From assembly GCF_905475395.1 (NCBI RefSeq), contig NC_058338.1, forward strand, positions 311,001 to 375,000: 64,000 nucleotides of DNA, read 5' to 3'. The translations under genes and the position numbers were made by a program. The first letter of the stretch is position 1. Each line of letters starts with the position of its first letter. The notes beneath the pieces are model-generated. The model had not been told where the DNA came from and searched no databases. It saw nothing but the letters and a program-made list of their open reading frames with translations. This document shows positions 3,301 to 42,985 of the stretch, piece after piece. This DNA is from Chrysoperla carnea. Its lineage: Eukaryota > Arthropoda > Insecta > Neuroptera > Chrysopidae.

Positions 3301-5208
3301 AAAATATAAATCTTGTTGTGAAGCTGCTACCGTTGCTGATTTCCATTTTGTTCTGTGTCGTGTTGGTGGCGCAACGATATTTAAATTTTTTATCACGTTT
3401 TCAATACTAAGTCGTATCTTTTCTGGTGATCTGGTACCTTTGTTGGTTGACGTAGATAATGACCCACGATTACTTTGATCTTTAAATATGTTCTCGATGC
3501 TGTCTTTCCTTGTTAAATCGTATTTGAACAAGATGTTCGAAGTCACATTCATTTTCATTGAGTTTGAAACAGTTTTAGTTGCTATTTTAGTGCCTAGAGT
3601 TCAGGATTAATTAAACGTTAAATACTATAAATCTTAAAATCTGGTTACAAAAGTTCACACATGCAAGATAATTCTTGTTTTGCTAAATTTCTATTTAATC
3701 GAAAACTATTCATTTTAAAGAAAAAGTAGATCAATCCAAAGTTATTTGGCGTAAAATTTTTGATCGATTTGTATATATCAACTAAAACAAGAATTATCGA
3801 GTTCACACGGGAAATAACGCAGATTTGCAAAACTAACCATCTGCTGATTTAAGAATGTACTTGGGGGCTGCTAGAATATATTTAGTTTTGGTTTTCCCAA
3901 TTATTTGTTTGGTTTGACGAAGAATCCGTCCAGGAAATTGACTAAAATAATGTATCTCTTGTTTATAATAATTATTCTGGATGAGATGTCTTTTAATTAA
4001 TCGATTTGCATTCATTACTATTTGATTATTGTATACTTTATCTGATGCTAAATGTTGTTTACGCCATTTATTCATTTTAATCAATAGATTTGCAACGGAA
4101 TTAAACATACTGTTAACAACACGATACATTCGCCATATTTTACAATTCATACTTTTTAATTTACTCACAAACACATCTAACAATTTAATCAAACGTACTT
4201 TTCGAGGTTCATCGAAACGTTCCACCATACGATCGATTCGTTGCATAAATAATTTTACCAAAAATTCGAATCGTCGAAGCTTTCGTAATAGGATACGACG
4301 ATTGATATTATTTCGTAAGTTCTGTCGTATTGATTTTGTGATCGCTTGTATGGTTTGAGTAGTTTGATAAAACTTTTGTTTGATTAAAAATGGTGACCAC
4401 ATAAAATAATGTTTTAAGTTTGAATCGTTTTTAATTTCTTGTTGATCGCTAGCCTTGGTTCGTTCGACGGTTTGATTTAAAACTCGCCAAAGTTGATACG
4501 AATTTGTCCAATTTGATGGTTGCGTTAGATTTGAGTAAACTAATTTGTTGTAATAACGTTGGATGTCTTTTAATACATTTGTTGTGTGTAACATTCGATG
4601 GACGTTCCTAAAACAAACACTGCAAAATATACCCCAAATAGCCAGAGCAAAAAAGTAGGTTCATAATGCAATTTACTGCACAAAAAGTACCTGTTATTGG
4701 TCAAATATATGAAACTAAAAAGTAGGTATTCTACACGGGTCGAGTTAGTTATTTCTAATGACGTATGACGGACCTATATAACGTTTGACGTATAATGACG
4801 TACGTACCATTTTTGTGTAGACGTACAATATTTACGTTGTTTTAGATCTCCATTATTATTATTTTTATTAAATTTAATATTTTGTGCACTTTTCTTTATT
4901 TCATTTTCATACATTCTTTGCATTTTTTTCCAATTTGGATCCTTTTCCAATGCGTTAACAAAATCACTAACTTTAAAAAATCCATTATTCACACCAGTAT
5001 TATTAGTGCCCGTCTCCCCACTTGATGATCCTTGAAACTCTCCTAAACGTATTTGTTCTGGTGTCCCTTTATTATTACTTTTGTTAATATGACAATGTTT
5101 CTTAATAATTTGTTGGTAACCTGCTCCCCATCGTTTCAGAATGTTATGGTATCCTATAGGACGTCCATAAATTTGTGTTGTAAAGCCTAAACATATAACT
5201 GTTGACAT
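396..5208 (-). CDS. Unrecognised six-exon gene encoding a basic, Ser/Asn-rich repetitive protein
   Basis: Proposed coding exons on the minus strand are 5208-4808, 4607-3838, 3593-2928, 2783-2118, 1518-803 and 740-396. All five introns have GT/AG ends and junction phases agree (2, 1, 1, 1, 0), giving 1187 codons before the TAA at 396-398. The ATG at 5206-5208 follows an in-frame stop, but a further 5' exon cannot be excluded. I do not recognise the protein. Residues about 135-390 (exon 2) are very basic and probably helical, with many Arg/Lys/Asn/Gln. Residues about 610-1070 are Ser/Asn/Asp-rich with internal repeats: a 14-residue repeat (catac-anchored at 2431, 2473 and 2515, period 42 bp) and a Cys-containing YCTCKEK motif repeated 21 residues apart (1243 and 1306). 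KES-type motifs recur in exon 5. There is no clear signal peptide or membrane span. Low-complexity sequence suggests a fast-evolving, partly disordered protein. Intron 4 carries a palindromic MITE, and part of exon 2 is duplicated inverted at 11296-11875. Confidence 0.72.
1240..1335 (-). repeat. In-frame 63-bp direct repeat (YCTCKEK motif)
   Basis: Two copies of a segment encoding an Asp-rich stretch followed by YCTCKEK lie 63 bp apart in exon 5 of the unknown gene. The near-identical DNA suggests recent in-frame duplication. Confidence 0.75.
1674..2060. mobile_element. Palindromic MITE in intron 4 of the unknown gene
   Basis: Two arms of roughly 190 bp are inverted copies. On the left (from ~1680) are CGCCATCTTTAAAAACACG, the ATCAAATATCTCGTGA block and the region up to the ATTTTTATTTATAG segment. 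On the right (up to ~2055) the same blocks run in reverse order, ending CCAAGATGGCGTCTGAAG. A whole palindrome of ~390 bp with no coding capacity is typical of a foldback-type MITE. Termini and target duplication are not resolved. Confidence 0.7.
2425..2560 (-). repeat. 42-bp coding tandem repeat (14-residue unit)
   Basis: Three units of a 14-residue Asn/Asp/Ser/Met repeat (core NDSRMES-like) with an exact 42-bp spacing (anchors 2431, 2473, 2515), all in frame in exon 4 of the unknown gene. Confidence 0.75.
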
Positions 5209-9300: not shown

Positions 9301-12300
9301 ATAAGGACGATAAGGGTAGGACAAAAAAAAAACTTGCTAAAATAATAAAATATAAGATATTATTTCAATTTTAAAAGTGTGTGCAAGACTTTTGAAGCAC
9401 TCTGTATGTATGTACCTTTAGCAATAAATTTATTTTCACCATCAACATTAAATTTTAATGGAACATCGGTTTTCTCCTCTTTCCATGTGAACCAACGCAA
9501 ATCAATTTCAGGTTTAGCCGTTTTCCCACTGGATGCATTGATTAACGCATCTAACATCTCTTTTGATGTGATTTCCACAATTTGATTCCATTTGATTTGG
9601 ATCAGTTGAATGACTCGTTCCGTAATTAATGGTTGAAATATTAAAAACCAAACATTAAAATTACGTTCTAATGATAATTTTTGACATAATTGTTCCCAAT
9701 TATCAACCAATTCTGTTCAAAACAAAAACAGAAAAACAACAAATAAATTACCCACAAAACTACAATCTTGATTTGAGGTTATATTAGTTTAATTAATTTA
9801 TGTAACTTACTAATTTTTAACGCTTCTTCCCGAATGCTATCCAGACCTTTAATCGATGTCACCATATTTAAACGTTCACTCAAATTTGAATTAATGGATT
9901 GCTTGACCCAATCCAACCAGCGCTGGATACAATCTCCTGCAGCTTGTGGTGTTATCAAATCACTTCTCGATTCAGTTACAATCGGCCTAAAAAAAAAACA
10001 TCAAACAAGTGAAATTTACAAAATTTGAAACATATCAAACAACACTATCCATTCAATTACTATTTTTCCTTAAAGCTTTTTCCAAGGTGAACCAATTTTA
10101 ATTTTTTTTCGGTTTCAGAACCCTAAACTTTCACTTGAAACATAGCTAAGAACATTCTCCATTAAATTACCTTTCAAACAAAATACAAAAAAATCAAAAT
10201 TGGTTCACTCGTTTAAGTGCTATAATGCCACAGACAGACAGACACACACAGCGGTAAAACTTACTTGTATTCGTTAACAATCTTTGGTAGATATTTAATT
10301 AATGGATCACTAAATACAAAATCAACACAATTAATTGTTGGTTCTGCATCTTTACTCACGATATTCTTTAATTTCTGATAAACTAAACCTTCGTTGCCAT
10401 TCCCACCATCTAAAAACAAAAAAAAATTGATTTTCGCGTTAAAAACAATTAATTCGGAAACGGATCCAACGATTTTCATGAGAATTAGAATGCAGGTAGT
10501 TTTTGGGACGAAAAATCTATCTAGCTAAATTTTATTTAAAAAAAAATATCGTTTTATCCGAGTTTTCAGGAAAAACTGAAACAATGACTGCAAAATATAA
10601 CTCTTCCTGACATCTATTGGTGACGAAATAAAGTACATTATACCGGGACATTCAAATTGGTTTTTGTGTAGAGACATTTTAAATGATTGATAACTCAAAA
10701 AATAGGGAGTAAAGCTCGTTGATCCTGTAATTAAAATTAAATACGTTCCGTTACATACCAATAAAACATAAATAAATTAATTGTATTGTATTGATAATTA
10801 ATTTTAATGTTGAACATGTTATTGTTTTAACACTAATTGCACTGATTGTGGCTGCTATGGCAACAGACGATCCTTGATCATGATTGATTTGTAATTCATT
10901 TTGTAAAATGATTTTACGGAATTCAATAAATTTATGTAATAACGCACTAATATTAATATTTTCTAATAATGCGTACGCTGTTAAATAATTCGATGCAACC
11001 TAGAAAACAAATCAAAATTAAAACTCTAGTGTTCTAGTGCTGTTGATTTAGTGGTCAGGTACTAACATCTGCAGAAAGTGTACTATTTTGTAGATGATTA
11101 TGTAAATTATTATGGATACGTTTGTGGAAATGTTCAATTTTCATCCATTGTGTTTTAATTATTGGATAATTCTGTAAAACTTCATTTGTTGTGTCCAATT
11201 TTAATCCTAAAAAACATTTAAAAAAATATGGAGAAACATTTACGAATAGGGTATTATCGTTAGTCAAAAATAAATCATGAAATTTGAAAAAAGTAACGAA
11301 AGCTTCGACGATTCGAAGATTTGGTAAAATTATTTATGCGACGAATCTATCGTATGGTGGAACGTTTTGAGGAACCTCGAAAAGTACGTTTGATTAAATT
11401 GTTAGATGTGTTTGTGAGTAAATTTAAAAATATGAAATGTAAAATATGGCGAATGTATCGTGTCGTTAACAGTATGTTTAATTCCGTTGCAAATCTATTG
11501 ATTAAAATGAATAAATGGCGTAAACGACATTTAGCATCAGATAAAGTATACAATAATCAAATAGTAATGAATGCAAATCGATTAATAAAAAGACATCTCA
11601 TCCAGAAAAATTATTATAAACAAGAGATACAATATTTTAGTCAATTTCCTGGACGAATTCTTGGTCAAACCAAACAAATAATTGGGAAAACCAAAACTAA
11701 ATATATTCTAGCAGCCCCCAAGTACATTATTAAATCAACAGATGGTTAGTTTTGAAAATCTGCGTTATTTCCCGTGTGAACTCGATAATTCTTGTTTTAG
11801 TTGATATATACAAATCGATCGGAAATTTTAGATTGATCTACTTTTTCTCTAAAATGAATAGTTTTCGATTAAATGGTAAAAATTGTGGAAAAATGTGGAA
11901 TTAAGATTAGAAAAGAAAAGATAATCATGGAAATTTAATTTTTAACAACTTCGTTGATAACCATTTTTCGTGTAAAATTAAAAATAAACGAGATATACAA
12001 CAAACAAAAATTCACGACCATCTCTTTTCGGGTCTAAATCGAAAAATATCGATTCTAGAAAAAAAAAGTAAGCTTGTACTAACCTGTATAAATATGTTGA
12101 GCTAATAAATATAACTGCGTTGCTTTTAAAAAGTTATTCTCATCAATTGCCGTCCAAATTTGTTCTGGTATATAAATCAAAATTTTTATTTGCATTGATA
12201 TACTTTTTTCGAAAATTTTTTGTTCTTTTCTACAAAAAAACAACACTCATTAACCATGGGGAGAAGAAACATCACGTCACGTCAGTCGAATAATAATATC

Positions 12301-21035: not shown

Positions 21036-21120
21036 CACCCACTCAACCCACACCCACACCCACACCCACACCCACACCCACACCCACACCCACACCCACA
21101 CCCACACCCACACCCACACC
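21036..21120. repeat. Hexamer microsatellite (CACACC)n
   Basis: About 13 uninterrupted CACACC units. The apparent Cys/Gly reading frame on the minus strand is an artefact of the repeat. Confidence 0.95.
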
Positions 21121-21265
21121 TAACCCAACCCAACCCAACCTAACCCAACCTAACCCAACCTAACCCAGCCTAACCCAGCCTAACCCAGCCTAACCCAACC
21201 TAACCCAACCTAACCCAACCTAACCCAACCTAACCCAACCCAACCCAACCCAACCCAACCCAACC
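21121..21265. repeat. TAACCCAACC-type array, telomere-like
   Basis: Alternating TAACCC, AACC and TAACCT steps, grading into pure AACCC at the right edge. It is related to, but not identical with, the insect telomere repeat (TTAGG/CCTAA)n. Confidence 0.9.
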
Positions 21266-22604: not shown

Positions 22605-25600
22605 TAGTGTGATCAAATTAACTTTTTGAATTCTTTAATTCTGAGTTTGGAGAAAAAAAATTGAATTTAGTAGATTATTATGATACAAATTGAAGAAACT
22701 AAAATCTAACATTTTTTGATGGTCGGAAAGGGTCCAAAAAAAATGGTAAAGTGGCCTAATCCGGTCTTTCGCGTCAGACACCCTCGGCTTGAGTTAAAAA
22801 TAAAAAAGCGTTTAATAAGCTTAGGCGTCGTAAAAAGGCAAAAAAAATGAGCTGCAAATGAACCCGATTGGTCCATCGATGTCCCCACAAATTGCAAAAA
22901 ACCATCGATTTTGCTCGAAATTTCAAAACTTCATAACTCTTGTTGTTTTAAAGATTCAAAGCTGAGATTTAAATGGATTGTAGCTTTTATGCCCATGAAG
23001 TATCACACACAATTTCAGTAAGATCGAATGTATACTTTTTGCAAACCGCAACTGAATGCAAAAAAACAGGACTTTTGTAAAATGGCTCTAAAAAAGTTGT
23101 GGTGCGGTAAGGCGCTATTTTTTTTACGCGATCGTATGCTTCAATAGTTAAAATAATACCTACTAAAGTGCCAACCTCTTATCTTTAGTAAAAGTTACTA
23201 AAATATTAATTTTAAATTACTATTATTTTAAATTATAACATTAAAAATAGGATTGGAGTAATGGGAGCAATTGTTAAGAGACAAAAGTTATGTAACATTA
23301 TAACAACAACAGTCACTTATGGAAGTACTAGGATTATTCTTGCTACCCGGGTAAAAAAAATTATATATAATTATATATAATTACATATAATTATATATAA
23401 TTACATATAACTATATATAATTATATATAATTACATATAATTATATATAAATTACATATGATTATATATAATTATATATAATTATACATAATTATATATA
23501 ATATTATATAATTTTATATAATTACATATAATTATATATAAATTACATATAATTATATATAATTATTTATAATTACATATAATTATATATAATTATATAT
23601 AATTACATATAATTATATATAATTATGTATAATTATATATAATTATATATAACTACATATAATTATATATAATTACATATAACTATATATAATTACATAT
23701 GATTATATATAATTATATATAATTATACATAATTATATGTAATATTATATAATTTTATATAATTACATATAATTATATATAAATTACATATAATTATATA
23801 TAATTATATATAATTACATATAATTATATATAATTATATATAATTATATATAATTATATATAATTATATATAATTTCATATAATTTCATATAATTATATA
23901 TAAGTATATATTATTATATATAATTATATGTAATTTATATATAATTATAGTTAATTATATATAATTAATATAATTATATATGTAATTATATATAATTAAA
24001 CATAATTATATATTATTATATATTATTATATATAATTATATATAATTACATATAACTATATATAATTATATATTATTACATATAATTACATATAAATTAC
24101 ATATAATTATATATAATTATATATTATTATATGAAATTATATATAATTATATATAATTATATGTAATTATATATAATTATATATAGTTATATGTAATTAT
24201 ATATAATTATATGTAATTATATATAATTACATATAATTATATATAATTATATATAAATTACATATAATTATATATAATTACATATAAATACATATAGTTA
24301 TATATAATTTCATTTAATTTACTATAATTATATATAATTATATATTATTATATATAATTATATGTAATTATATATAAATTACATATAATTATATATAATT
24401 ACATATAATTATATATAATTATATATTATTATATATTATTATATATTATTACATTCTAGTATAGCAAGATTAAGAACAAATTTTCTTGCTACCCGGGTAA
24501 AAAAAATTATATATAATAATATACAATTACATATAATTATATATAATTTCATATAATTATATATTATTATGTATAATTATATGTAATTTTTATATAATTA
24601 TATATAATAATATATAATTATATAAAATTATATATAAATTCCATGTAATTATATGTAATTATATATAATTATATATAATTATATGTTATTATATATAATT
24701 ATATATAATTACATATAACTACATTACTATATGAAATTATATATAATTACATATAATTATATATAATTATATATAAATTACATATAATTATATATAATTT
24801 TATATAATTATATATAATTATATATAATTATATATAATTATATATAATTATATATAATTATATATAATTATATATAATTATATATAATTACATATAATTA
24901 TATAAAAATTACATATAATTATATATAATAATATATAATTATATGAAATTATATATAATTATATGTAATTTATATATAATTACATATAATTATATATAAT
25001 TATAGTAAATTATATGAAATTATATATAATTATATGTAATTATATGTAATTATATATAATTATATATAATTATATGTAATTTATATATAATTATATATAA
25101 TTATATGTAATTATATATAATTACATATAATTATATATAACTACATATAACTATATATAATTTCATATAGTAATATATAATTATATGTAATTTATATGTA
25201 ATTATATGTAATAATATATAATTATATATAGTTATATGTAATTATATATAATTATATATAATTAAACATAATTATATATTATTATATATTATTATATATA
25301 ATTATTAATAACTATATATAATTACATATAATTATATATAAATTACATATAATTATATATAATAATATATACTTATATATATAGTTATATGAAATTATAT
25401 GAAATTATATATAATTATATATAATTATATGTAATTCTATATAATTTTATGTAATTTATATATAATTATATGTAATTATATATAATTATATATAATTATA
25501 TATAATTATATATAATTATATATAATTATGTATAATTATATATAATTATATATAATCATATGTAATTTATATATAATTATATGTAATTATATATAATTAT

Positions 25601-26400
25601 ATATTGTTATATGTAATTATATATAATTATATATAATTTTTTTTACCCGGGTAGCAAGAATAATCCTAGTACTTCCATAAGTGACTGTTGTTGTTATAAT
25701 GTTACATAACTTTTGTCTCTTAACAATTGCTCCCATTACTCCAATCCTATTTTTAATGTTATAATTTAAAATAATAGTAATTTAAAATTAATATTTTAGT
25801 AACTTTTACTAAAGATAAGAGGTTGGCCCTTTAGTAGGTATTATTTTAACTATTGAAGCATACGATCGCGTAAAAAAAATAGCGCGTTACCGCACCACAA
25901 CTTTTTTAGAGCCATTTTACAAAAGTCCTGTTTTTTTGCATTCAGTTGCGGTTTGCAAAAAGTATACATTCGATCTTACTGAAATTGTGTGTGATACTTC
26001 ATGGGCATAAAAGCTACAATCCATTTAAATCTCAGCTTTGAATCTTTAAAACAACAAGAGTTATGAAGTTTTGAAATTTCGAGCAAAATCGATGGTTTTT
26101 TGCAATTTGTGGGGTCATTGATGGACCAATCGGGTTCATTTGCAGCTCATTTTTTTTGCCTTTTTACGGCGCCTAAGCTTATTAAACGCTTTTTTATTTT
26201 TAACTCAAGCCGAGGGTGTCTGATGCGAAAGACCGGATTAGGCCACTTTACCATTTTTTTTGGACCCTTTCCGACCATCAAAAAATGTTAGATTTTAGTT
26301 TCTTCAATTTGTATCATAATGATCTACTAAATTCAATTTTTTTCTCCGAACTCAGAATTATCTAACAATTGACGCCATTTTTTTTTATTTGATCACACTA
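22605..26400. mobile_element. 3.8-kb foldback transposon with long inverted arms and AT-array core
   Basis: Left arm 22605-23360 and right arm 25637-26400 are near-identical inverted copies. Outer ends are TAGTGTGATCAAAT and its complement ATTTGATCACACTA, so the element appears bounded by TA, as in Tc1/mariner-type insertions. Inner ends are the ACCCGGGTAAAAAAAA boundary. A third copy of that inner boundary lies at 24484-24508 within the core. Each arm carries the same 63-codon open frame (22706-22897 minus, 26100-26291 plus), which has no recognisable domain and is probably chance. No transposase is present, so it would be non-autonomous. Confidence 0.88.
23361..25636. repeat. 2.3-kb TATATAAT(T) satellite-like array
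   Basis: Degenerate (ATTATATATA) and (ATTACATATA) units repeated for the whole span between the foldback arms, interrupted once at 24452-24508 by a GC-containing boundary sequence. Confidence 0.95.
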
Positions 26401-30240: not shown

Positions 30241-32355
30241 GTATGAATGGTGTTATAAATGGTAACAAATGTGACCAACATGGATAATAAACTAACATGA
30301 GTACAAGCAACACTATAAACTTTTTGACTAATTATTTGTGATGGTGTTGTAAACACTTATACAGCGTTGTATGTATATGTATGGTGTCAACATAACACCA
30401 GTGCTACAGTTATTATTATTATTATTATTATTATAGCTGTTAGTACTTTATTGTTTCACATTTAAAACACCTGAGACCATCACACAACAGACCAATTCAT
30501 TAAAATGTGTGTGTGTGTACCACCTAGATAAGGGAGGGTGCTTTAGTATTTAAAGTTTCATATAAAAGTTGTATTAAATGATTAAGTTTTAACCAAACCC
30601 AAATATTTCGTTTTCGATTTGAATCACGCTCATTGTCCCAGCCATGAAACGGAAAGATATGCTGAATTTTGGATCCATTACAAGAACTTCCGTATAATTT
30701 AATATTTAATCTTGTATGAATTTTAAAATTAAAATTTAGGTAAAATATAAATAATAATAATAATAATAATTTGTTTGAAATAAAAAACTTTCTTAAAAAT
30801 TAAAATTAATAACATTTTGTTTTGTTATAATTATTATTAATGTCCATAAAGCCAACCATTTATTATTATTTTAAATTTATAAAATACAAAAAACAAAACT
30901 TGAATAAAAATATCTCACACATAATTCATTTTAAATAGAATTCATATTACACCTATTTTTACTGAAAGTTTCATATATATTGAAGGTAGATATTTAAAAA
31001 AATACAAAACATGCATTAAATTTTATTTTATAAAGTTCAAATACTAAAACCCCATCTAAGATTAAACAGTTTTCCACAGATTAGAAAAGAGATTCCCCGA
31101 CTGTAATGATGATTTTACTAATTATAGTAATTTCAGATGAAAATATTTTCTTGTTTTCATACTTCTAAAAGCGTGATTATGTAGTCGTCGAGACATAATC
31201 CCGACTACATAATGATATTTTGTTTTAACGATACATCATTTGTCAAATTTTGCTAAGTAGCCAAGATGCTAGATGGGAATAGATGAATATATTCATTGTG
31301 AACAAAGAGGGTGAACAAGTATGAAAGCCATATAAACGCGTTTAACAGTACAAACAAACACCTTAAATGTTTGTGTAACACATTGTACTTAAATAAAGTT
31401 AAGTGCCAATGCCAATTAAGTGTCATAGTTTTAGTAAAACTCAAAACTAATAAATTATATTTTTGTATTTGCGTGCATGCATTAAGAATAAATTTTTGTT
31501 TTAAGTAGGTATTATTACTTCAATATGATATGACGATACCTTATACTTTATCTACTTAAATAAATTTAAGATTTTAATTTGTATTCTTTATTTTTAAGAA
31601 CACATTGCGACACTGAAACGATACAATGTTTTCGTGTGTGTGATCAAAATGACCATTTCATTTCAGAAAGATCCCAATCTTTTTCAGTCATCTCCGTGCA
31701 AAAAGTGTCCACTTTTGTTCCACTGTGCAAAACAAAATTGTCGTTTTCTACCTCTTCGGCGGCGAGAAAAATAATATACACACACACCAGAGTAAGTAAA
31801 GAATGTCTTAGATATATATTTATCGACTACAGGAGTGTAATTCCGTACGGGTGTAGCTAGTTTATAAGTATTATTAATTGATGTTTTATAAATAAATGAC
31901 CTTGCATGACCTTCAATAATAATTGTCCATCTGGTCAACTGTTCAATGGTTGTACCTTACTTACTAAGTCAGACTCAGATAGGTACTTACTTACTTAAGG
32001 TGCGTTATTACTTTACTTAAGATAAAACATATTCATTAAAATTGAGAATAGCTGACATCAATATTTTAAGTAAGTGTTTATTAATTAATTTGATTCATGG
32101 GAAAAACAGCTTTTTTTTGGGTCTTTTCAAGAAATATGTGGGTCAGTGAATGGGAATTACACAATCTAGTTGAAGTTAATGTTTGAAACAAAATATGCAA
32201 ACATAATTGAAATTTTTCATGTAAACACTACAAAACTCGAAATTTTGATAATTAGTAAAATTGTAAGAAATAGATTAAACAATAATATTTGATTGATTTT
32301 ATGAATTTGTATCAGTTAAGGTGTAAATACTTGGATGATAGACCTTTACTCCATA

Positions 32356-32790
32356 TTTTTATACCATGTATATATGAAATATACATAGTATATTAAGTTT
32401 CGTCCCAAGTTTGTAATGCTTAAAAATAATGATGCTATAAAAAATTTTGGTATAGGTGTTCATAGAATCACCTAATTAATCCATTTCCGGTTGTCCGTCC
32501 GTCCGTCTGTGGACACGATAACTCAAAAAAGAAAAAAAATATCGAGCTGAAATTTTTACAGCGTACTCAGGACGTAAAAAGTGAGGTCAAGTTCGTAAAT
32601 GAGCATCATGGGTCTTGGGTCTTGGGTCAAAAGTTTAAATGTAAAAAATGTTCCTTATAAAAAAATAAAAACTTTTGTTTGAAACATTTTTTTGTAAACA
32701 TCACTGTTTACCCACGAGGGCGTTAATTAGGTGCACATTTTATAGTATGTATTAATATAATTAACTCAGTGTTTGTTTTCACTTGTTTTT
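32356..32790 (+). repeat. R1 dispersed repeat, long copy
   Basis: Order of conserved blocks: TATACCATGTATATATGAAA, CCAAGTTTGTAATGCTTAAA, GGTATAGGTGTTCATAGAA, CCGGTTGTCCGTCCG, GATAACTCAAAAAAG, AGGACGTAAAAAGTGAGGTC, CATCACTGTTTACCC and a final GTTTGTTTTCACTTG. The same order occurs at 42387-42985 and, diverged, at 58332-58692. No open frame. Confidence 0.85.
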
Positions 32791-33960
32791 TTTTTATTAT
32801 AAAATCATCAACATCAAGTAAAATGGTTGCAAGTAAAAAACAAAAAACCTTTTATAACATGTATATGAAATATACCAAGTTTAGTCCCAAGTTTGTAACG
32901 CTTAAAATATTAACATTGGTCAATTGGGTCTTAGGTCCGTAGGACTCATCTTGTAAACCGTTAGAAATAGAATTTATAAAATTTATAAAATCAAATTCAA
33001 ACTGTGATTATATTTTCTTTGTATCATAATAATTTTAATAACAGTAATTGAAAATTGAGTTTTTTTCTTTTATATTGTTTTTGATTACTTTGATCTTAGT
33101 GTAGGTACGTAATCTGGAGAAAGTCATCCCTTTTAATGAAGTGCACAAATAATTGGTTTTCTTTCTAATTGTATCAAGAAAAAAAAATTGAATGAAGGAA
33201 AAGTTTTTAACGAACTGTGTATTTAAAATAAGAAAAATACTTTGGAATATGAATAAATAAAAATACATAAATAATACATTAATATCGATTTAGAAAATAT
33301 TTCTAACGATTTGGGATTTTCCTTGACCTAAGAGAGTCCGGTTCCTAAAATGGCCCATAGTAATATCAAGTTGAGATTCGTGGTTGAAATTATTTGTTCT
33401 TTATTTTCAACTCTGATCATGAAAATACGAAATTTTTCGTTATTTGTCTTGGTTATCGAAATATCGAAAGCTAAATAATTAAACAAAATTTTCAATTTTC
33501 GATATTTTAAAAATTACTCCACATATCGAAAAATTTTAATGATAATCATTATGTTAATCATTTACAGTGGAAAAAAAACATTAATCATGTGACATAAATG
33601 TAGTAAAAAAACCGAGGAAAAACCTGATATTTGTAATAGAACATTTTATAATAGAAGCAAAAAATTCTTAATAAATAGGGTCTATGAATAGTTATTACTA
33701 CACTGTATCCGAATGACTTAATGTGTTTCGGTTTAGAAGGATGTGTTTTCGGTTTATACTTATTCGGTTTTCTCACTCAAATCCCGAATAAGTATAAACT
33801 TTAATTTTTTTTTTTATGAATTTATTCATATGATTTTTTGCAAATCAATTAAATTAATTTGAATACGCATTTATTTTGGAATAAGTTAAATTTATTTATT
33901 CATTAGGTTAATATAATTTTCTCACTGATATTAGATTTTTAAATTGTATGTATATATATC

Positions 33961-34046
33961 GGGTTATATGGCGGAGTGGTAAGCGAGTCCGACTCGTAGT
34001 ACTAAGATCGTGGGTTCGAAACCCACTAAGGCAGAAAATTTTTTTT
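33961..34046 (+). repeat. tRNA-like module with pol III A and B boxes
   Basis: An A-box match (TGGCGGAGTGG, 33968-33978), a perfect B box (GGTTCGAAACC) within a 5-bp T-stem and 7-base loop (GTGGG-TTCGAAA-CCCAC), and a T9 run at 34038-34046 that could end pol III transcription. The acceptor stem does not pair and the anticodon arm is replaced by a CGAGT-CCG-ACTCG palindrome, so this is not a functional tRNA. It may be a SINE-type or tRNA-derived module. Confidence 0.65.
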
Positions 34047-34119
34047 TTCCCTACGTTATTAATTTAAGTTTGTATAACAATCCCACAGGTGTTTTAGTCA
34101 CTCAAAGTTTTTCATTAGG

Positions 34120-34525
34120 TTTGTACAGCTTTATCACCGATAATGTCTCTTGATATTGTTTCATCATATAAGAGGTGTCGCAGCTCGGTGTTAAGCGGGT
34201 GCGACTCGTAGATCGAAGGTCTATGGTTCAAAGCTCGGGCAAATAAAAATTTTAAATTTTTTCTCTACATTTCATGGTCTGATTTATTCAAATTAATTTC
34301 ATTAATTTAAATGCGTGTTAAATTTCCGCGCTTTTTTCGGGTGTGGTCAATCAAAATTATTCATTAGGTCAGTAGTGTTTCATCGTTCATAGTGGACAGT
34401 TGGTTACATTTGTGCTTTGTGTTTCACCTTCATTTGACTTCCAAACGTCAAATTTCATTTTCGAATTTGTTTCTGAGTAAGTTTTTGTTTTAATTTACAT
34501 TTTTCTAATTCTTTTTTTGTATATT
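34120..34525 (+). repeat. Diverged duplicate carrying a second tRNA-like module, copy 1
   Basis: Matches 36230-36550 in block order: CATTAGGT, GCTTTATCACCGAT, a tRNA-like AAGCGGGTGCGACTCGTAG with GGTTCAAAGC (34190-34245), GTGTTTCACCTTCATTTGA, TTCCAAA-TCAAATTTCATTTTCG and TTTGTTTCTGAGTAAGTTT. Confidence 0.6.
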
Positions 34526-34914
34526 GTAAAATTCTATATTATATTTAATTTGTTTCACATTTTGTCCAAATGCTTTTTTACACAAAACTTTTAATATTAA
34601 TTAAAAAAAATTATGTTGGAATCATTTGTTTATTTTTTCTAATTGAAATCACATTCTAGAATTAGTTGTTTTATTATTAGTGATTGACTACAAGTATTTT
34701 TATTTGATTTCAAAATTTTTCGATTTCGCGATTTTTCGATTTCAAAATTATTCCCAAGAGATTCAATCTCATTTATACAAAATTTATTTATAATAAATAT
34801 AACAAAATGAATATGTACTATGGTTCGATAAAATTTTTTGACGTTAGTGTTATTTTAGATGTAGAGTTTACTAATAAACACACAGTTTTAATATTAATAA
34901 TTATAATTTTTATT

Positions 34915-35235
34915 TAAAGACGTTCATTCATCAACCTGTTTTGCTATGTGCGTTTATATGGAAACAGTATTTAAATTTGAAATAATTTTGAAATTTTATT
35001 AAAATTTTTAATAATTACTAACTGATAAAAGTTTCAAGTATAGTTATCGATATAATTTTTGAGAAATATCGATTTATATTTTCCATTTAAACCTATGTTA
35101 AAGATTAATTTTTGTCACTTTTTGAATTTAAAATTTAACATTAATTACGTTTCGATTAATTTATATAATTGTATATTTTTTCTTTCTTAAATCATTTAAA
35201 CTTTTTTATCATCATAATTATTTTTATTTGTCTAC
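34915..35235 (+). repeat. Hairpin-bearing repeat, copy 1
   Basis: Shares block order with 35515-35850: AACCTGTTTTGCTA, GTGCGTT, GGAAACAGTAT, an A/T-rich stretch, CGATATAATTTT, TTATATTTTCCATTTA and ATTTAAA-TTCAAT-like blocks. The hairpin is CTGTTT (34936-34941) with AAACAG (34962-34967). Confidence 0.6.
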
Positions 35236-35379
35236 TTACAAGTCTCATGAATGTACGTCCTTAAATGAATAACTAAATAACTCTACAATCCGTTACTAAA
35301 TATCGAAAAAAATTCTATCAAAATAATAAATGAAACTAAATTTGTATTCAATTGATTTCAACACTCCGCTCAATTCAAA

Positions 35380-35515
35380 CAAAACATATTCCTATGGGCT
35401 GAGCAAATTTGTGAAATTTTTGATTTGATAAACCTTTGGTACAAATATCAGCCAGTTCATTTTTTGAAGGTATATAATCAATTTTTTTTAAAATTCTGAT
35501 CGAATGAAATGTTAT
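35380..35515 (-). pseudogene. Copia-type RNase H remnant (minus strand)
   Basis: On the minus strand the sequence reads CATTTCATTCGATCAGAATT and then, after a frameshift, DYIPSKNELADICTKGLS followed by KFHKFAQPIGIC. This is the end of a Ty1/copia Pol (HFIR...IPTENQLADIFTKGL in the family). It is short and frameshifted and therefore dead. Confidence 0.85.
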
Positions 35516-35850
35516 TTAAGTTCACGTACATGCGTGAACCTGTTTTGCTACGTGCGTTCGTAGGGAAACAGTATGTAAATTTTAAAGAATTTTAAATTAA
35601 TAGAAATTTTTTTGAAATTCTATTAAAAGTTTAAATAATTATTACCTGGTAAAAGCTTGTAAAAAAAAGTATTGGTATCGATATAATTTTAGAATAATAT
35701 CGTATTTATATTTTCCATTTAGTCCCATATTAAATCTTACTTTTAGTCAATTTTTTAAACTTAAAATTCAATGAAAATAATTCGATAACAGGTTATTTTT
35801 CTTGTCTTAAATCATAGAAAATCATTTAAACTATCGCATTACCATATTGT
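35515..35850 (+). repeat. Hairpin-bearing repeat, copy 2
   Basis: Second copy of the 34915 unit. It has a hairpin CTGTTT (35540-35545) / AAACAG (35566-35571) with an inner CTACG/CGTAG stem and a TGCGTT loop. It is preceded by a perfect TTCACG-TACATG-CGTGAA hairpin at 35521-35538 that copy 1 lacks. Confidence 0.65.
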
Positions 35851-35927
35851 TTTTTGTTTCTCTACTATTATCGTTGACGCATGTACGCCCTTCAATTATT
35901 TGGAAATAATATATTTTGAAAATCTAA

Positions 35928-36177
35928 AAAACAGAATATTAAGTTGCATTAGCTAGCTGCGGTTTGTAAAATGAATGTTTTAATATTATCGTTAAACCAG
36001 TAATTTTTGAGGATAATCAATCAAGTATTCAATAAGTTAAGAATTGGGAAAGTAAAAGAAGTAAACACATTGGCATTAAATACCATTTCATTCGATCAGA
36101 ATTAAAAAAAGATAATTTAAAAATTGAACATATACCTACAGAGAATCAATTGGCTGATATTTGTACATACACTAGAT
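35928..36177 (+). pseudogene. Copia-type RNase H remnant (plus strand)
   Basis: The frame gives TEY-stop-VALAS, then KPVIFEDNQSSIQ, a stop, VKNWESKRSKHIGIKYHFIR, and IEHIPTENQLADIC before a stop at 36175. These are the conserved blocks of Ty1/copia RNase H. Several stops show it is decayed. It is inverted relative to the remnant at 35380-35515, about 0.5 kb away. Confidence 0.9.
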
Positions 36178-36229
36178 AATAATAAAATTATTTTTAATTA
36201 TTTTAATTATTTATCACTAAAATATATTT

Positions 36230-36555
36230 ATTCATTAGGTTGGTCCAGTTTTATCACCGATTATGGCCGTTTAAATTGTAACAAGCATCAAGTCGTGTGG
36301 CAGAGAGTATAGCGAGTCCTACTCCTCTTACACAGGTATGGAGTTCAAAATCCAGGTAAGTAAAATTTTAATTTTAATTTTCTAAATCTCATGTAATAAT
36401 TTATTCTTAGTAATATAATTAATTTGAGTGTGTGTTTTACTATTCACTATGAATAGCTTATTTATTTGACATTTATCTATTCCCTTCATTTGAATTCCAA
36501 ATCTTAAATTTCATTTTCGGGTTTGTTTCTAAGTAAGTTTATGTTAATAAAGGTA
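36230..36555 (+). repeat. Diverged duplicate with tRNA-like module, copy 2
   Basis: Counterpart of 34120-34525. The tRNA-like part (36293-36357) has TGTGGCAGAGAG, AGCGAGTCCTACTC and a weak B box GAGTTCAAAATCC. It ends directly before the 1173-bp tandem array. Confidence 0.6.
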
Positions 36556-36579
36556 AATTAAGATTAAATGAGCCATCTT

Positions 36580-39500
36580 TAATTGTTTATGCATAAATAT
36601 TATTGCAAATTAAGCAATTTTTAACTTTTATGCCCAGAGATATTTTTGGTTTTTTTCAATTTATTTTACTCTAAATATCAGTTCATTAATTTAAATTTGT
36701 AAAATCGGTCTGCCCTATATCCTGAGAAGCGACGTTGACTAACTAAGGTTAGTATGATGTTTCTCAGGAAAAACTCGTTCGATTTGTTGCATGTGTTATA
36801 ACACTATGAGAAATTGTGTAGTCAAAAATCAATTTTTTCTCGTTATGTCTGTCTAAAAGCTAAGCGCCTCGATAGGGGATTATGTATCAACTCATGATGA
36901 CGGTGAGACGGGACATGCAAAAAAGCGCAGTCATCACTTAAAGTGAGTTAGGTATATCTAGACAGATAATGTACGGAAAAAATGATCTTGATTGCATGGA
37001 TTTTTCGCCTGTGTTATAGCCTGTGATATATTGGATTGGTTTCATTCTGGGGTAAGTCAACTTATAACTGGGTTGAAAAATTGCCTAATTTTTCTTTTTA
37101 AATTTTTTTTATTTTCTTTTTTAAATATATTATTTTAAATTTGTAAATTCGGTCTGCCCTAAATTCTGAGAAGCGACGTTGACTAACTAAGGTTAGTATG
37201 ATGTTTCTCAGGAAAAACTCGTTCGATTTGTTGCATGTGTTATAACACTATGAGAAATTGTGTAGTCAAAAATCAATTTTTTCTCGTTATGTCTGTCTAA
37301 AAGCTAAGCGCCTCGATAGGGGATTATGTATCAACTCATGATGACGGTGAGACGGGACATGCAAAAAAGCGCAGTCATCACTTAAAGTGAGTTAGGTATA
37401 TCTAGACAGATAATGTACGGAAAAAATGATCTTGATTACATGGATTTTTCGCCTGTGTTATAGCCTGTGATATTTTGGATTGGTTTCATTCTGGGGTAAG
37501 TCTACTTATAACTAGGTTGATATGGTTGATTCAAATGGACCTTCAGAAATATTTATGCATAAAGGTTATTGTAAATTAAGCAATTTTTATTTATTCCTTT
37601 TCTTTTTAAAATAATTGAATTTTTTTCCAGAGATATTTATGCTTTTTCATCTCCGACAATGTCATTCGTATAATTCTGTGTTTGTGACTTGTAAAATTCA
37701 TATCCTATCCTAGAATTACCTTTTTTTATCATATCCTATCCTAGAACTTTCTTTAATTGTTATGCATAAATATTATTGCAAATTAAGCAATTTTTAACTT
37801 TTATGCCCAGAGATATTTTTGGTTTTTTTCAATTTATTTTACTCTAAATATCAGTTCATTAATTTAAATTTGTAAAATCGGTCTGCCCTATATCCTGAGA
37901 AGCGACGTTGACTAACTAAGGTTAGTATGATGTTTCTCAGGAAAAACTCGTTCGATTTGTTGCATGTGTTATAACACTATGAGAAATTGTGTAGTCAAAA
38001 ATCAATTTTTTCTCGTTATGTCTGTCTAAAAGCTAAGCGCCTCGATAGGGGATTATGTATCAACTCATGATGACGGTGAGACGGGACATGCAAAAAAGCG
38101 CAGTCATCACTTAAAGTGAGTTAGGTATATCTAGACAGATAATGTACGGAAAAAATGATCTTGATTGCATGGATTTTTCGCCTGTGTTATAGCCTGTGAT
38201 ATATTGGATTGGTTTCATTCTGGGGTAAGTCAACTTATAACTGGGTTGAAAAATTGCCTAATTTTTCTTTTTAAATTTTTTTTATTTTCTTTTTTAAATA
38301 TATTATTTTAAATTTGTAAATTCGGTCTGCCCTAAATTCTGAGAAGCGACGTTGACTAACTAAGGTTAGTATGATGTTTCTCAGGAAAAACTCGTTCGAT
38401 TTGTTGCATGTGTTATAACACTATGAGAAATTGTGTAGTCAAAAATCAATTTTTTCTCGTTATGTCTGTCTAAAAGCTAAGCGCCTCGATAGGGGATTAT
38501 GTATCAACTCATGATGACGGTGAGACGGGACATGCAAAAAAGCGCAGTCATCACTTAAAGTGAGTTAGGTATATCTAGACAGATAATGTACGGAAAAAAT
38601 GATCTTGATTACATGGATTTTTCGCCTGTGTTATAGCCTGTGATATTTTGGATTGGTTTCATTCTGGGGTAAGTCTACTTATAACTAGGTTGATATGGTT
38701 GATTCAAATGGACCTTCAGAAATATTTATGCATAAAGGTTATTGTAAATTAAGCAATTTTTATTTATTCCTTTTCTTTTTAAAATAATTGAATTTTTTTC
38801 CAGAGATATTTATGCTTTTTCATCTCCGACAATGTCATTCGTATAATTCTGTGTTTGTGACTTGTAAAATTCATATCCTATCCTAGAATTACCTTTTTTT
38901 ATCATATCCTATCCTAGAACTTTCTTTAATTGTTATGCATAAATATTATTGCAAATTAAGCAATTTTTAACTTTTATGCCCAGAGATATTTTTGGTTTTT
39001 TTCAATTTATTTTACTCTAAATATCAGTTCATTAATTTAAATTTGTAAAATCGGTCTGCCCTATATCCTGAGAAGCGACGTTGACTAACTAAGGTTAGTA
39101 TGATGTTTCTCAGGAAAAACTCGTTCGATTTGTTGCATGTGTTATAACACTATGAGAAATTGTGTAGTCAAAAATCAATTTTTTCTCGTTATGTCTGTCT
39201 AAAAGCTAAGCGCCTCGATAGGGGATTATGTATCAACTCATGATGACGGTGAGACGGGACATGCAAAAAAGCGCAGTCATCACTTAAAGTGAGTTAGGTA
39301 TATCTAGACAGATAATGTACGGAAAAAATGATCTTGATTGCATGGATTTTTCGCCTGTGTTATAGCCTGTGATATATTGGATTGGTTTCATTCTGGGGTA
39401 AGTCAACTTATAACTGGGTTGAAAAATTGCCTAATTTTTCTTTTTAAATTTTTTTTATTTTCTTTTTTAAATATATTATTTTAAATTTGTAAATTCGGTC

Positions 39501-39990
39501 TGCCCTAAATTCTGAGAAGCGACGTTGACTAACTAAGGTTAGTATGATGTTTCTCAGGAAAAACTCGTTCGATTTGTTGCATGTGTTATAACACTATGAC
39601 AAATTGTGTAGTCAAAAATCAATTTTTTCTCGTTATGTCTGTCTAAAAGCTAAGCGCCTCGATAGGGGATTATGTATCAACTCATGATGACGGTGAGACG
39701 GGACATGCAAAAAAGCGCAGTCATCACTTAAAGTGAGTTAGGTATATCTAGACAGATAATGTACGGAAAAAATGATCTTGATTACATGGATTTTTCGCCT
39801 GTGTTATAGCCTGTGATATTTTGGATTGGTTTCATTCTGGGGTAAGTCTACTTATAACTAGGTTGATATGGTTAATTCAAATGGACCTTCAGAAATATTT
39901 ATGCATAAAGGTTATTGTAAATTAAGCAATTTTTATTTATCCCTTTTCTTTTTGAAATAATTGAATTTTTTTCCAGGGATATTTATGTTT
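36580..39990 (+). repeat. Higher-order tandem array: ~2.9 copies of a 1173-bp unit holding two structured ~370-bp cores
   Basis: The TATGCATAAAT anchor recurs at 36588, 37761 and 38934 (exact 1173-bp period). Each unit has core A (starts 36706, 37879, 39052) and core B (starts 37150, 38323, 39496), 444 bp apart. Cores of the same type are virtually identical between units; A and B differ at under a dozen sites. Each core contains several inverted repeats. In A1 they are CCTGAGAA (36721) with TTCTCAGG (36761) enclosing CTAAC/GTTAG; the palindrome GTGTTATAACAC (36793); and TCTGTCTA (36848) with TAGACAGA (36959) enclosing AACTCA/TGAGTT and TGATGAC/GTCATCA. No long open frame. The third unit diverges after about 39985. 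Function unknown: a structured RNA gene cluster or a structured satellite. Confidence 0.95.
36706..37075 (+). ncRNA. Candidate structured RNA core A1 of the array
   Basis: Representative core. The nested pairings listed for the array predict an imperfect three-stem, branched fold on the plus strand (on the minus strand too, as these are DNA inverted repeats). A to B sequence changes keep the first stem (CCTGAGAA to TCTGAGAA against TTCTCAGG, a G-U wobble). No match to tRNA, 5S, snRNA, SRP or RNase P features that I know. The assignment as a transcribed RNA is inference. Confidence 0.35.
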
Positions 39991-40107
39991 TATCTCTTTC
40001 TTATATTTTAGGAATACCTGTCCTGTAATTATATTAAGTGATGTCAAATTTAGGCTGATAGTATTTGGGGATTGTGAATTTTTATTTTTAGGAATTGCGA
40101 TAATGTT

Positions 40108-40289
40108 ATCCAATTTGTCATGTTCCGGTCACGACAAATTGGATGATTAATTATCTTTTTCTTCTGTTTAAATGTAACCGGATGCACTTAAATAGAAGGA
40201 AAAGATCGTGGATTAGGCCTATAGGGGATACCACGTAAAAAAAAACGCGCTGATGTATCCTACCTCAATGGTAGTGTGGAAACGGATAC
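40108..40289 (+). ncRNA. Candidate structured RNA: four consecutive hairpins
   Basis: H1: 12 bp perfect, 40108-40119 with 40133-40144. H2: 22 bp with two wobbles and one mismatch, 40153-40174 with 40185-40206, 10-base loop. H3: CGTGG 40207-40211 with CCACG 40231-40235. H4: GTATCC/GGATAC (40255, 40284) with inner TACC/GGTA. This is an unusual density of stems in 182 bases, directly beyond the tandem array. Transcription is not shown. Confidence 0.4.
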
Positions 40290-42386
40290 AAATTTCTTTT
40301 ATAATGATTTTCTTTTACAGTGAGAATTTTGGGTTACAAATGACAATCTTGGCTAAAAATGCAACGATCTGCCAAAATTTCAAGTATATCCATCGAATAT
40401 AAATAATATCAACAAACATTTAAACAAACAACAGACTTAACAGCACACGTGAGTATTTGTTTTATGTTTCTTGTAAATAAGTCATCCAAAACAACATTTA
40501 TCCAACTCAACAAGATTCAATGGTTTTCGTGATTCAATATTTTGTTTCATATAAATTATATTTGAAGGTATCATAAAGTTTCAATGCCGGAAAATATAAA
40601 ATTTGTAATAAAATTTGTGCTTTTTATTTCTTTATAAATTAATAATTTATTAATTGATCACTAGAAAATAAATATTGGCTTAGGATATCGATTCTAAGTG
40701 CTGTTAAATTAGTTGCAAATATTATTTTATTATTTTAACATTTGGGCAACTTTTGCTTAAGCATCTTTCTGTATCTTGCGTTTTTTTTTCTTTCGATTCA
40801 ATGCAACAATGATATATTTTTCGTATTTCGTCGTATTTCCTCCGAAATCTTACAATTTTCGAAAGAATATTTTCAACCAATTTCCTAATTTAATGTGTTA
40901 TGCTATCTCTTACATTTTAGGATTAAAATTGATTAATAAAGCAACCCCAAAAAATAGCTTCAATCTGAACGAACTATTTTAGCCATAATAGATTAAAATG
41001 TTCTACCCTGTATATCCAGAATTCATGTTCCCAGAACATTTTTCCCAACTAGATTAATCAGTCCCTATATGCGTAAAATAGTATAAAATGCGAAATAAAA
41101 AACCTTATTTTTATCTTCGATTGTCAAGAAAGAAACAAGCTTTAAACTTTTTATTATTTTTTTATTTAAAATTTGCACTGAATTCTTAAGATCGTGTTAA
41201 ATCGATCTTTACCGATGTCATTCACAGGTAATTACAGTAAAATTGCGTTATAAAATACTTGATATTAAATAAAATGACTTGCAGAGTTGCAGTACATGTA
41301 ATAAATTAAGGGCATTATTTAATACTTGAAACAAAATATGTAATTATGAATATCATGAATTTATAAATAGGAGCCGAGTCGAGCTGAGCCGGCATCAACC
41401 AAAATTATTTACTTTCACTCATAGCACGTCGATCGACCACCGTTGGCATTGTGCATGACTGTTCTACGGGGCAGAGGCATACTGGCGGTGTAATACGTAT
41501 TGTTTTCAACAGTTAAACAATTTTTTAATTTTATTACAAGATAATTACTTTAATCTGATTACCAGACTCTTTTTTTTTTATTTGTTTTCTTTCAAATTCA
41601 GTTTCTTTGTCGATATGTCCTAGATATCTTTCTTATTTATTCCAAATATTTTGATACTTTGATTTTTATCTTAATTAAATGTTTCTTGTGTAATTCAATG
41701 GCTCGCCTCACATAGTTCAAGTATCTTACAAAAGTGATTCAAGACTCAAACAGACTTAATACTCTATCTATTTTTTATCAGGGTAAGCTTTCATTTGGGA
41801 AAGTGGGATCTTAGATTAAAGCAATTCTGGGTAAAATGTAAACGCAATTAGCAACTGTCTATGCATGGTATTTCAACAATTAACTCAGTCAATTGTTTGT
41901 TTTCACTTGTTTTTATCAAAATAAATATCAAATAATATTTTAAGAAATGCATTTAATTATTTATTTATTTCTTTATTTTTATGCTAGTGTTTTAAAAAAT
42001 AACTTTATATAAAAATATGTAGAGGCTATGATTAACAAATATTTGACACATTTTTAAAACGCGTGAGCAAATCTTTGATCATCTTGACGGATTAATGGTC
42101 CCATTTTCTTTGCCCAAAAGTATACAAAAAGATAATAAATAGATTTGAATTAAATATCTATCAAAGATTTTTTTTTATTATTTTGTTTTGAGAATTATTT
42201 CTATAATTAGAAAAAAATTCCTTTTTGTATTTAAGTATTTTTTTTGTAAATTTGATCCCGTAAAATCTTTAATTCAAGAGAATTTTCCGGGAATTAACAC
42301 GAATGAAAGAATTTATTTTAAACAATACCTTGAAAAATTGTTCTTTTTTTCAGGAAGGTCTACGTTTATGTTTTTCGATATGCATT

Positions 42387-42985
42387 TTTATACCATGTAT
42401 ATATTAAATATATTAAGGTATACTAAGTTTAGTACCAATTTTGTAAGGCTTTTAAAATATTGATCCTACAAACAAAATTTTGCGATAGGTGTTCATAAAA
42501 TTACTTAATTAATTCATTTTCGGTTGTCCGTCTGCCCGCCCGTTACCACGATAGCACGAAAACGAAAAGATATATCAATCTGAAATTTTTATAGCGTGCT
42601 TAGAACGTAAAAAGTGAGGTCGAGTTAGTAAATGTGCAACATAGGTCATAGGTCAATTGGATTTTGGGTCCGTGGGACCCATCTTGTAAATCTTTAGAGA
42701 TAGAATACAAGTTTAAATGCATAAAATGTTTCATATAAAAAAATTAACAACTTTTGTTGAAACATTTTTGTCTTAAATATCACTGTTTACCTGTGAGGGG
42801 GCAAATTAGGCACAAATCATATTATACGTGTTATACGGGAATATCAGTTATGTATGTGTGGCTATCTAAGAGTGGCTATCTTTTTTACTAACATGACGTA
42901 AAAAAACCAACGATTACGTAACCAACACTGTCTATACATGGTATTTCAACAATTGAATCAGTCAATTGTTTGTTTTCACTTGTTT
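42387..42985 (+). repeat. R1 dispersed repeat, near full-length copy
   Basis: The longest copy (~600 bp), from TATACCATGTATATATT to TCAATTGTTTGTTTTCACTTG-like end. It also contains the CATGACGTAAAAAAACC and CTATACATGGTATTTCAAC blocks seen separately at 41850-41915 and 58630-58690. Confidence 0.85.

Follow-up and report, generated by a model that had tools for sequence, protein, structure and literature searches.

The DNA examined here, called the window throughout, is a 64-kb stretch of the lacewing Chrysoperla carnea (C2 311001-375000); the genome searched comprises 559 Mb in 337 contigs. The window contains a tandem array of three 1173-bp units, each holding two ~370-bp cores that are predicted to fold strongly as RNA on one strand. 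It forms the tandemly repeated middle of a large non-autonomous Helentron (HINE) that has spread over the lacewing chromosomes. The parts of the array, in window positions, are as follows.

36576-39994, + strand: central tandem array of three 1173-bp units, each ordered P, core A, link, core B, P' (limits from self-BLAST)
36586-36623, also 37760-37796 and 38933-38969, + strand: P repeat before core A, bounding the units
36706-37075 in unit 1, also 37879-38248 and 39052-39421, + strand: core A (self-comparison and fold)
37150-37519 in unit 1, also 38323-38692 and 39496-39865, + strand: core B (self-comparison and fold)
37552-37589, 38725-38762 and 39898-39935, + strand: P' copies after core B, in direct repeat with P

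Comparison of 36587-38814 with the sequence 1173 bases onward gave 5 mismatches over the ~2.2-kb self-overlap. Cores A and B are spaced 444 bp apart within a unit and share 98.1-98.4% identity, and the G+C content of the core is 0.39 compared to 0.08-0.29 in its surroundings. An initial annotation, made from the sequence alone, had described three such units with two cores apiece, and the self-comparison finds this arrangement with all six cores. The stems that it named are all in the sequence (CCTGAGAA/TTCTCAGG, CTAAC/GTTAG, the 12-bp palindrome GTGTTATAACAC, and TCTGTCTA/TAGACAGA). It also claimed that there is no coding frame, and no stop-to-stop frame of at least 60 aa lies wholly within the array. 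Two listed frames overlap the right end of the array, at 39937-40128 on the - strand and 39965-40150 on the + strand. The array is thus a real feature, but it is not a unique locus: it is one copy of the interior of a dispersed element, whose parts are listed next.

32355-41912, + strand: dispersed non-autonomous Helentron-like element (HINE), ~9.6 kb, with a 5' T-run and subterminal inverted repeat (subTIR) and the 3' end CACTTGTTT
32360-32371, + strand: 5' subTIR ATACCATGTATA, an 11/12 inverted match with 41860-41871
41860-41871, + strand: 3' subTIR TATGCATGGTAT, 41 nt from the 3' end
41874-41899, + strand: 3' palindrome CAACAATT / AATTGTTTG, 13 nt from the 3' end
42384-42985, + strand: short DINE-1/HINE-like element that lacks the core and shares the 3' terminus

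HINEs are described as having subTIRs of 12-15 bp, the 3' one lying ~38-60 bp from the 3' end (PMC4067079). The further features applied were a 5' subTIR 2-4 nt from the 5' end, a palindrome 8-35 bp from the 3' end, insertion at TT or T-rich sites without target-site duplication, and the absence of coding capacity, an autonomous Rep/Helicase partner moving the element. The element in the window has a 12-nt subTIR pair, and its 3' subTIR and 3' palindrome lie at the described distances from the 3' end. Its 5' subTIR lies 5 nt from the 5' end in the window, and the exact 5' base is uncertain because the leading T-run varies among three C1 copies. T-rich ends and unrelated flanking DNA are seen at the element junctions. 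The longest stop-to-stop frame within the element is 84 aa, and Pfam searches gave no match for six frame fragments inside the element or for one just downstream. Three other frames of the window were searched against Pfam, and two of them gave only matches far under the curated cut-offs. A peptide-coding stretch at 36066-36176 has a nearby inverted partial copy at 35439-35519; they have no Pfam match and are possibly captured fragments. By eye the peptide presumably resembles the RNase H region with which copia retrotransposons end at the C-terminus.

The best core matches in the genome lie in 14 arrays (79 matches, the 40 best of 377 candidates scored). These arrays and three C1 stretches of 9-10 kb made up the 17 copies examined, and in the alignment of the 14 arrays the flanks are conserved on both sides. 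The 3' end near 41912 is followed by unrelated DNA in 8 of the 17 copies (BLAST ends 41911-41916, except for one that ends at 41963 with an AT-rich extension). Four copies, all on C2 and including the window, share a further few hundred bases past 41912, and five lose similarity earlier, at 40359-40983. On the left side, the 5' T-run and ATACCATGTATA (32355-32371) adjoin different DNA in C1_45.09 and C1_62.28 with a continuous alignment, and the same 5' end in C1_78.75 is colinear with a gap. In the C2 copy at 0.72 Mb similarity reaches 27 bp farther to the left, and two copies have an alternative left end at 33825. Two other copies of the element measure 7.0 and 7.3 kb compared to ~9.6 kb in the window, and the number of units in the central array varies among copies. 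The terminus at 41854-41912 is 94.9% identical over 59 bp to that of the short element at 42927-42985, and a HINE 3'-end remnant lies inside the large element near 32763-32789. These data place the cores in the interior of a dispersed non-autonomous Helentron. The initial annotation had the feature and its fold right and missed this carrier; its discrete RNA gene or stand-alone satellite is not supported, and a dispersed transposon interior, which it had named as evidence against an RNA gene, is where the core is found.

The abundance of the core and of the terminus was determined by pattern searches that allowed up to 3 mismatches. The 42-bp pattern of hairpin 1 has 698 copies genome-wide (383 + 315), and the 46-bp pattern of the 3' terminus has 22,036; the reversed control gave 0 in each search. 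The 100 exact hairpin matches listed are all on C1, in 21 clusters. Several of the 14 arrays lie near chromosome ends, yet the C1 arrays span 3.7-98.5 Mb of 140 Mb, and a subtelomeric repeat was rejected. A search with the right flank, used to avoid ascertainment by the core, scored the 40 best of 807 candidates, all 97-100% identical. In 20 of these 40 matches the 1.7 kb upstream was inspected in previously unseen copies, and two full cores were present in 20/20; therefore, the core belongs to the element. The most diverged core used as a query returned 75 matches of the same subfamily and no more distant relatives among the 40 best of 376 candidates scored. Weak core remnants across all fetched DNA were limited to array-edge pieces under 250 bits, and the viral and prokaryotic collections held no exact match to a core 27-mer. 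Exact matches to the HINE 3' end that were listed for 5.18-7.48 Mb of chromosome C1 are all on the + strand and the strands are mixed before this interval, a possible large directional insertion block. Nucleotide diversity (pi) at 14 loci is 0.002-0.003 in the cores compared to 0.014-0.023 in the flanks. Constraint on the core was not concluded from this difference: arrays and flanks have separate histories, because elsewhere divergence in the core exceeds that in the right flank (one element has 98% identity in its right body and 91% in its cores).

The + strand of the core is predicted to form a ~370-nt rod that consists of a basal stem, a 50-nt hairpin, a long G-U-rich helix and a branched apical domain. 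The parts of this structure in core A of unit 1 are as follows.

36720-36769, + strand: hairpin 1 of core A (CCTGAGAA...TTCTCAGG, inner CTAAC/GTTAG), predicted fold
36770-36855, + strand: 5' arm of the rod, with the 12-bp palindrome (36793-36804) and a T6 run, predicted fold
36856-36958, + strand: apical domain, hypervariable between subfamilies, with its tip at core positions 195-221 (fold and alignments)
36959-37042, + strand: 3' arm of the rod, predicted fold

Folded as RNA, the + strand of core A has an energy of -127.5 kcal/mol (z -8.0) that 0 of 100 shuffles reached, whereas the - strand has z -1.6 and 4 of 100 shuffles were as good. A chance origin of the core feature is excluded because the core hairpin is present 698-fold in the genome and the + strand fold beats 100/100 shuffles. 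The background consisted of 134 windows of 370 nt (both strands, every 900 bases, array excluded). Only AT-microsatellite windows at 23.4-25.6 kb were more extreme than core A, and the next best z was -4.9. They belong to an AT-rich inverted repeat of 3.7 kb (22636-26360) that includes an AT array of period 10 (23359-25638). Scored on 12 shuffles like the background, core A had z -6.0 and core B -9.0 on the + strand, against -1.3 and -2.7 on the - strand. Six diverged copies from five loci gave z -4.3 to -6.8 on the + strand and -1.1 to -2.2 on the - strand. DNA folding parameters abolish the strand difference (z -2.7 on +, -2.5 on -). The + structure contains 26 G-U pairs compared to 7 in the - structure. 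When the ~85-nt rod arms are aligned without regard to wobble, they show 57 Watson-Crick pairs, 15 G-U, 2 A-C and 6 other oppositions; the two core halves, with transitions scored alike, give 28 G-U versus 9 A-C. Other hairpins of the element (33701-33900, 35501-35700 and 40101-40300) fold well on both strands, like plain palindromes. The right part of the element at 40100-40300 has strong hairpins with z about -5 on both strands. A 574-nt context keeps 130 of the 138 core pairs.

The fold had been described as matching no RNA family, and the Rfam search agrees: the window has no match, and over 33800-42000, with E up to 5, the one weak match lies outside the core. A stand-alone noncoding RNA gene was rejected, the core being transposon cargo, and a retrozyme or viroid identity was set aside with no ribozyme match in the Rfam searches. 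T6 and T5 runs lie within the core, so a polymerase III small RNA is unlikely and polymerase II would be the probable transcriber. ARAGORN found no tRNA gene in the window. Three tRNA-like stretches with A/B-box-like motifs were seen by eye at 33960-34045, 34165-34250 and 36290-36355, the latter two in a paralogous segment containing TTCATTAGGT. Among the titles and abstract openings listed from the literature on Chrysoperla repeats and small RNA, and on Helitron structured or hairpin RNA, none describes this element.

Substitutions among core copies were used to ask whether changes respect the predicted pairs. A substitution was private (recent) if present at one locus and shared (older) if present at two or more, and fixed differences between cores A and B were counted as shared. 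Across 34 loci (127 cores), paired:unpaired counts were 43:9 for private and 15:17 for shared changes (p 0.0013), and the ratio of kept to broken pairs was 15:28 private and 9:6 shared (p 0.13). Across 54 loci (167 cores), kept:broken was 15:29 private and 17:11 shared (p 0.03). Transitions in Watson-Crick pairs at these 54 loci made G-U versus A-C oppositions in the ratio 9:7 when private and 11:1 when shared (Fisher p 0.09; shared 11:1 against a 1:1 expectation, p 0.006), and the same substitution classes in the flanks gave 7:11 and 4:6. The 59-locus set (177 full cores, 1 partial core dropped) gave kept:broken 13:31 private and 19:12 shared (p 0.009), or 12:29 and 18:9 with the structure of a diverged copy (p 0.003). 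The shared G-U:A-C ratio of 11:2 in this set has p 0.02 against 1:1, and with the diverged copy's structure the G-U test gave 9:6 private and 9:1 shared (p 0.18). All of these structures come from single copies and favour those copies' own alleles. A majority-consensus version that used only canonical majority pairs gave kept:broken 12:32 private and 16:11 shared when the tip was left out (p 0.012), with p 0.37 for paired:unpaired. The direction of kept:broken was identical in every version. Taken together, these counts suggest that pairs survive older substitutions more often than they survive recent ones; they are not proof. The initial annotation's structured RNA thus retains a strong strand-specific fold without an Rfam match and a lean of older changes toward pair-keeping, and its discrete RNA gene is not supported.

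We consider it most likely, with a probability of roughly one half, that the array specifies a Helentron-borne, sense-transcribed tandem-hairpin RNA, perhaps akin to hairpin RNA (hpRNA). The structured-RNA part of this reading stands at about even odds. The element would be, or would have been, transcribed in the sense direction, probably by polymerase II; we infer the direction because pairing selection and transcription-linked strand bias would both point to the + strand. Such transcripts would carry one to several tandem hairpins, and the fold may be kept by selection in the lineages that spread as individual copies decay freely. The hairpins might then be long precursors that a Dicer-type enzyme processes or that double-stranded-RNA proteins bind. 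This hpRNA-type role, suggested by analogy, is the least certain step and is doubtful. A bolder version is tentative: the ~700 core copies may represent an undescribed, selection-maintained structured RNA with a rod scaffold and a hypervariable tip, carried as Helentron cargo and useful to the element, for instance because it disturbs the small-RNA pathways of the host or supplies them with substrate.

Several results weigh against a transcribed and selected fold. The substitution tests are overlapping versions of one test, uncorrected, and the pair-keeping versions range from p 0.003 to 0.22. The upper value is from the G-U test at 59 loci (9:6 private, 11:2 shared), which is not significant. 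With the majority consensus, kept:broken was 12:32 private and 18:20 shared (p 0.07), and transitions only gave 12:6 and 18:2 (p 0.12). Variants in the 14-locus set broke pairs more often than they kept them. The initial annotation had looked to covariation for support of an RNA gene, and it is not shown: an alignment of 45 cores, 39 of them distinct, has a double change at 1 of 138 pairs, a result equalled by 206 of 500 shuffles. Covariation score and paired percentage were barely above shuffles, 15 of 500 reaching each, and the RNAalifold covariation term was only -0.92. Shared changes affect 1-2 of 74 sites in the A-B linker (1-3%) and 2-4 of 84 or 136 in the rods and hairpin (2-3%). The linker thus has as few shared changes as the rods, and no argument was built on rod conservation; in the two outer flanks 10 of 86 sites (12%) and 6 of 121 (5%) are affected. 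The apical domain is the outlier with 22-25 shared changes in 103 columns (21-24%). Its 27-nt tip has 15 shared changes and no private ones, and exists as a few linked haplotypes, so that its changes represent few events. The strand difference of core A is exceeded in two of 67 background window pairs, both in the AT microsatellite. When an entire 1173-bp unit is folded, arms can swap between its two cores, and 57 of 138 core pairs are kept.

A serious rival, which we regard as quite possible without favouring it, is an inert HINE satellite. The cores would be ordinary central repeats amplified by slippage, unequal exchange and rolling-circle spread, and the fold would be a functionless accident derived from an old palindrome. 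HINEs with short satellite-like central arrays are known, as in 13 clusters studied in the oyster (PMC7492417). The recent changes that ignore pairing (13:31 at 59 loci), the single double-changed pair among 138, and rods as variable as the linker all agree with an inert repeat. However, a decayed DNA palindrome should leave similar numbers of G-U and A-C oppositions on the + strand, and the rod has 15:2. The strand-specific z in core A and in six diverged copies also argues against an inert repeat, as do the two-stranded folding of the other hairpins in the same element and the older transitions that favour pairing by 11:1 (54 loci) or 11:2 (59 loci).

It is improbable that the fold works as single-stranded DNA, with + strand hairpins that assist in replication or in joining to the target. 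Rolling-circle transposition would be expected to displace the + strand. The orientation fits the 5'-to-3' strand of the element, and a cis-acting feature would leave its selection signal in lineages that spread. With DNA parameters, however, the fold is modest and near equal on the two strands, and spread does not need the core because there are ~22,000 termini versus 698 core hairpins and short relatives in the window lack the core. A captured host or viroid-like RNA gene (RNase P/MRP, signal recognition particle RNA, 7SK, telomerase RNA or a self-cleaving retrozyme) amplified by the element is very improbable: the raised G+C of the core would suit captured DNA, and we take its size and rod shape to be reminiscent of viroid-like RNAs, but Rfam has only the weak match outside the core and no single-copy host homologue was seen in searches that scored the best candidates only and were swamped by repeats.

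The element with its predicted tandem-hairpin RNA was compared with known systems. Its subTIRs, its T-rich ends, the placement of its 3' palindrome, the short tandem array that separates two modules and a terminus at very high copy number are like those of HINE/DINE-1 elements (Drosophila DINE-1, oyster Cg_HINE, Pearl; PMC4067079, PMC7492417). Unlike them, it has a central unit of 1173 bp in which two ~370-nt cores form a dimer and a strong RNA fold is predicted for one strand, and at ~9.6 kb it is far above its ~0.5-kb relatives in the window. Retrozyme RNAs occur in tandem copies. Retrozymes and viroid-like tandem elements are also non-autonomous and have a compactly folding RNA, which is predicted here (PMC4918200). 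In contrast to retrozymes, the lacewing element has no ribozyme match and has Helentron-type ends. Fly hpRNA loci are tandem, near-identical long hairpins with labile copy number; hp-CG4068 has 20 tandem copies in D. melanogaster and 9 in D. simulans, and the tandem copies are reported to come from a common transcript (PMC10317233). An hpRNA, as an endo-siRNA precursor, is recognised by long duplex arms in a transcribed inverted repeat, by ~21-nt RNAs that depend on Dicer-2 and by a target gene; the predicted lacewing rod has arms of ~85 nt. The lacewing hairpins differ in being dispersed in many copies by a transposon and in having an imperfect, G-U-rich duplex. A HINE with central repeats is a known kind of element, and an RNA cargo would be an interesting addition that is unproved. 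If the fold is used, a rolling-circle transposon would carry a structured RNA of its own, whose scaffold stays steady as its tip changes fast; its hundreds of dispersed copies would then be a natural experiment in the use of RNA structure by selfish DNA. If it is not used, the array clearly warns that a transposon satellite may have a very strong fold, specific to one strand, and yet no covariation.

Further repeats were noted in the window and genome. A 594-bp inverted duplication (3693-4286 and 11296-11874; 94% identity) contains part of a 253-aa frame. The 600 bases at one end of each of C1, C3, C5 and C6 consist of tandem satellite repeats. An array of ACCCAACCTA / ACCCAC-type repeats lies at 21044-21265 and presumably resembles a telomere-like motif.

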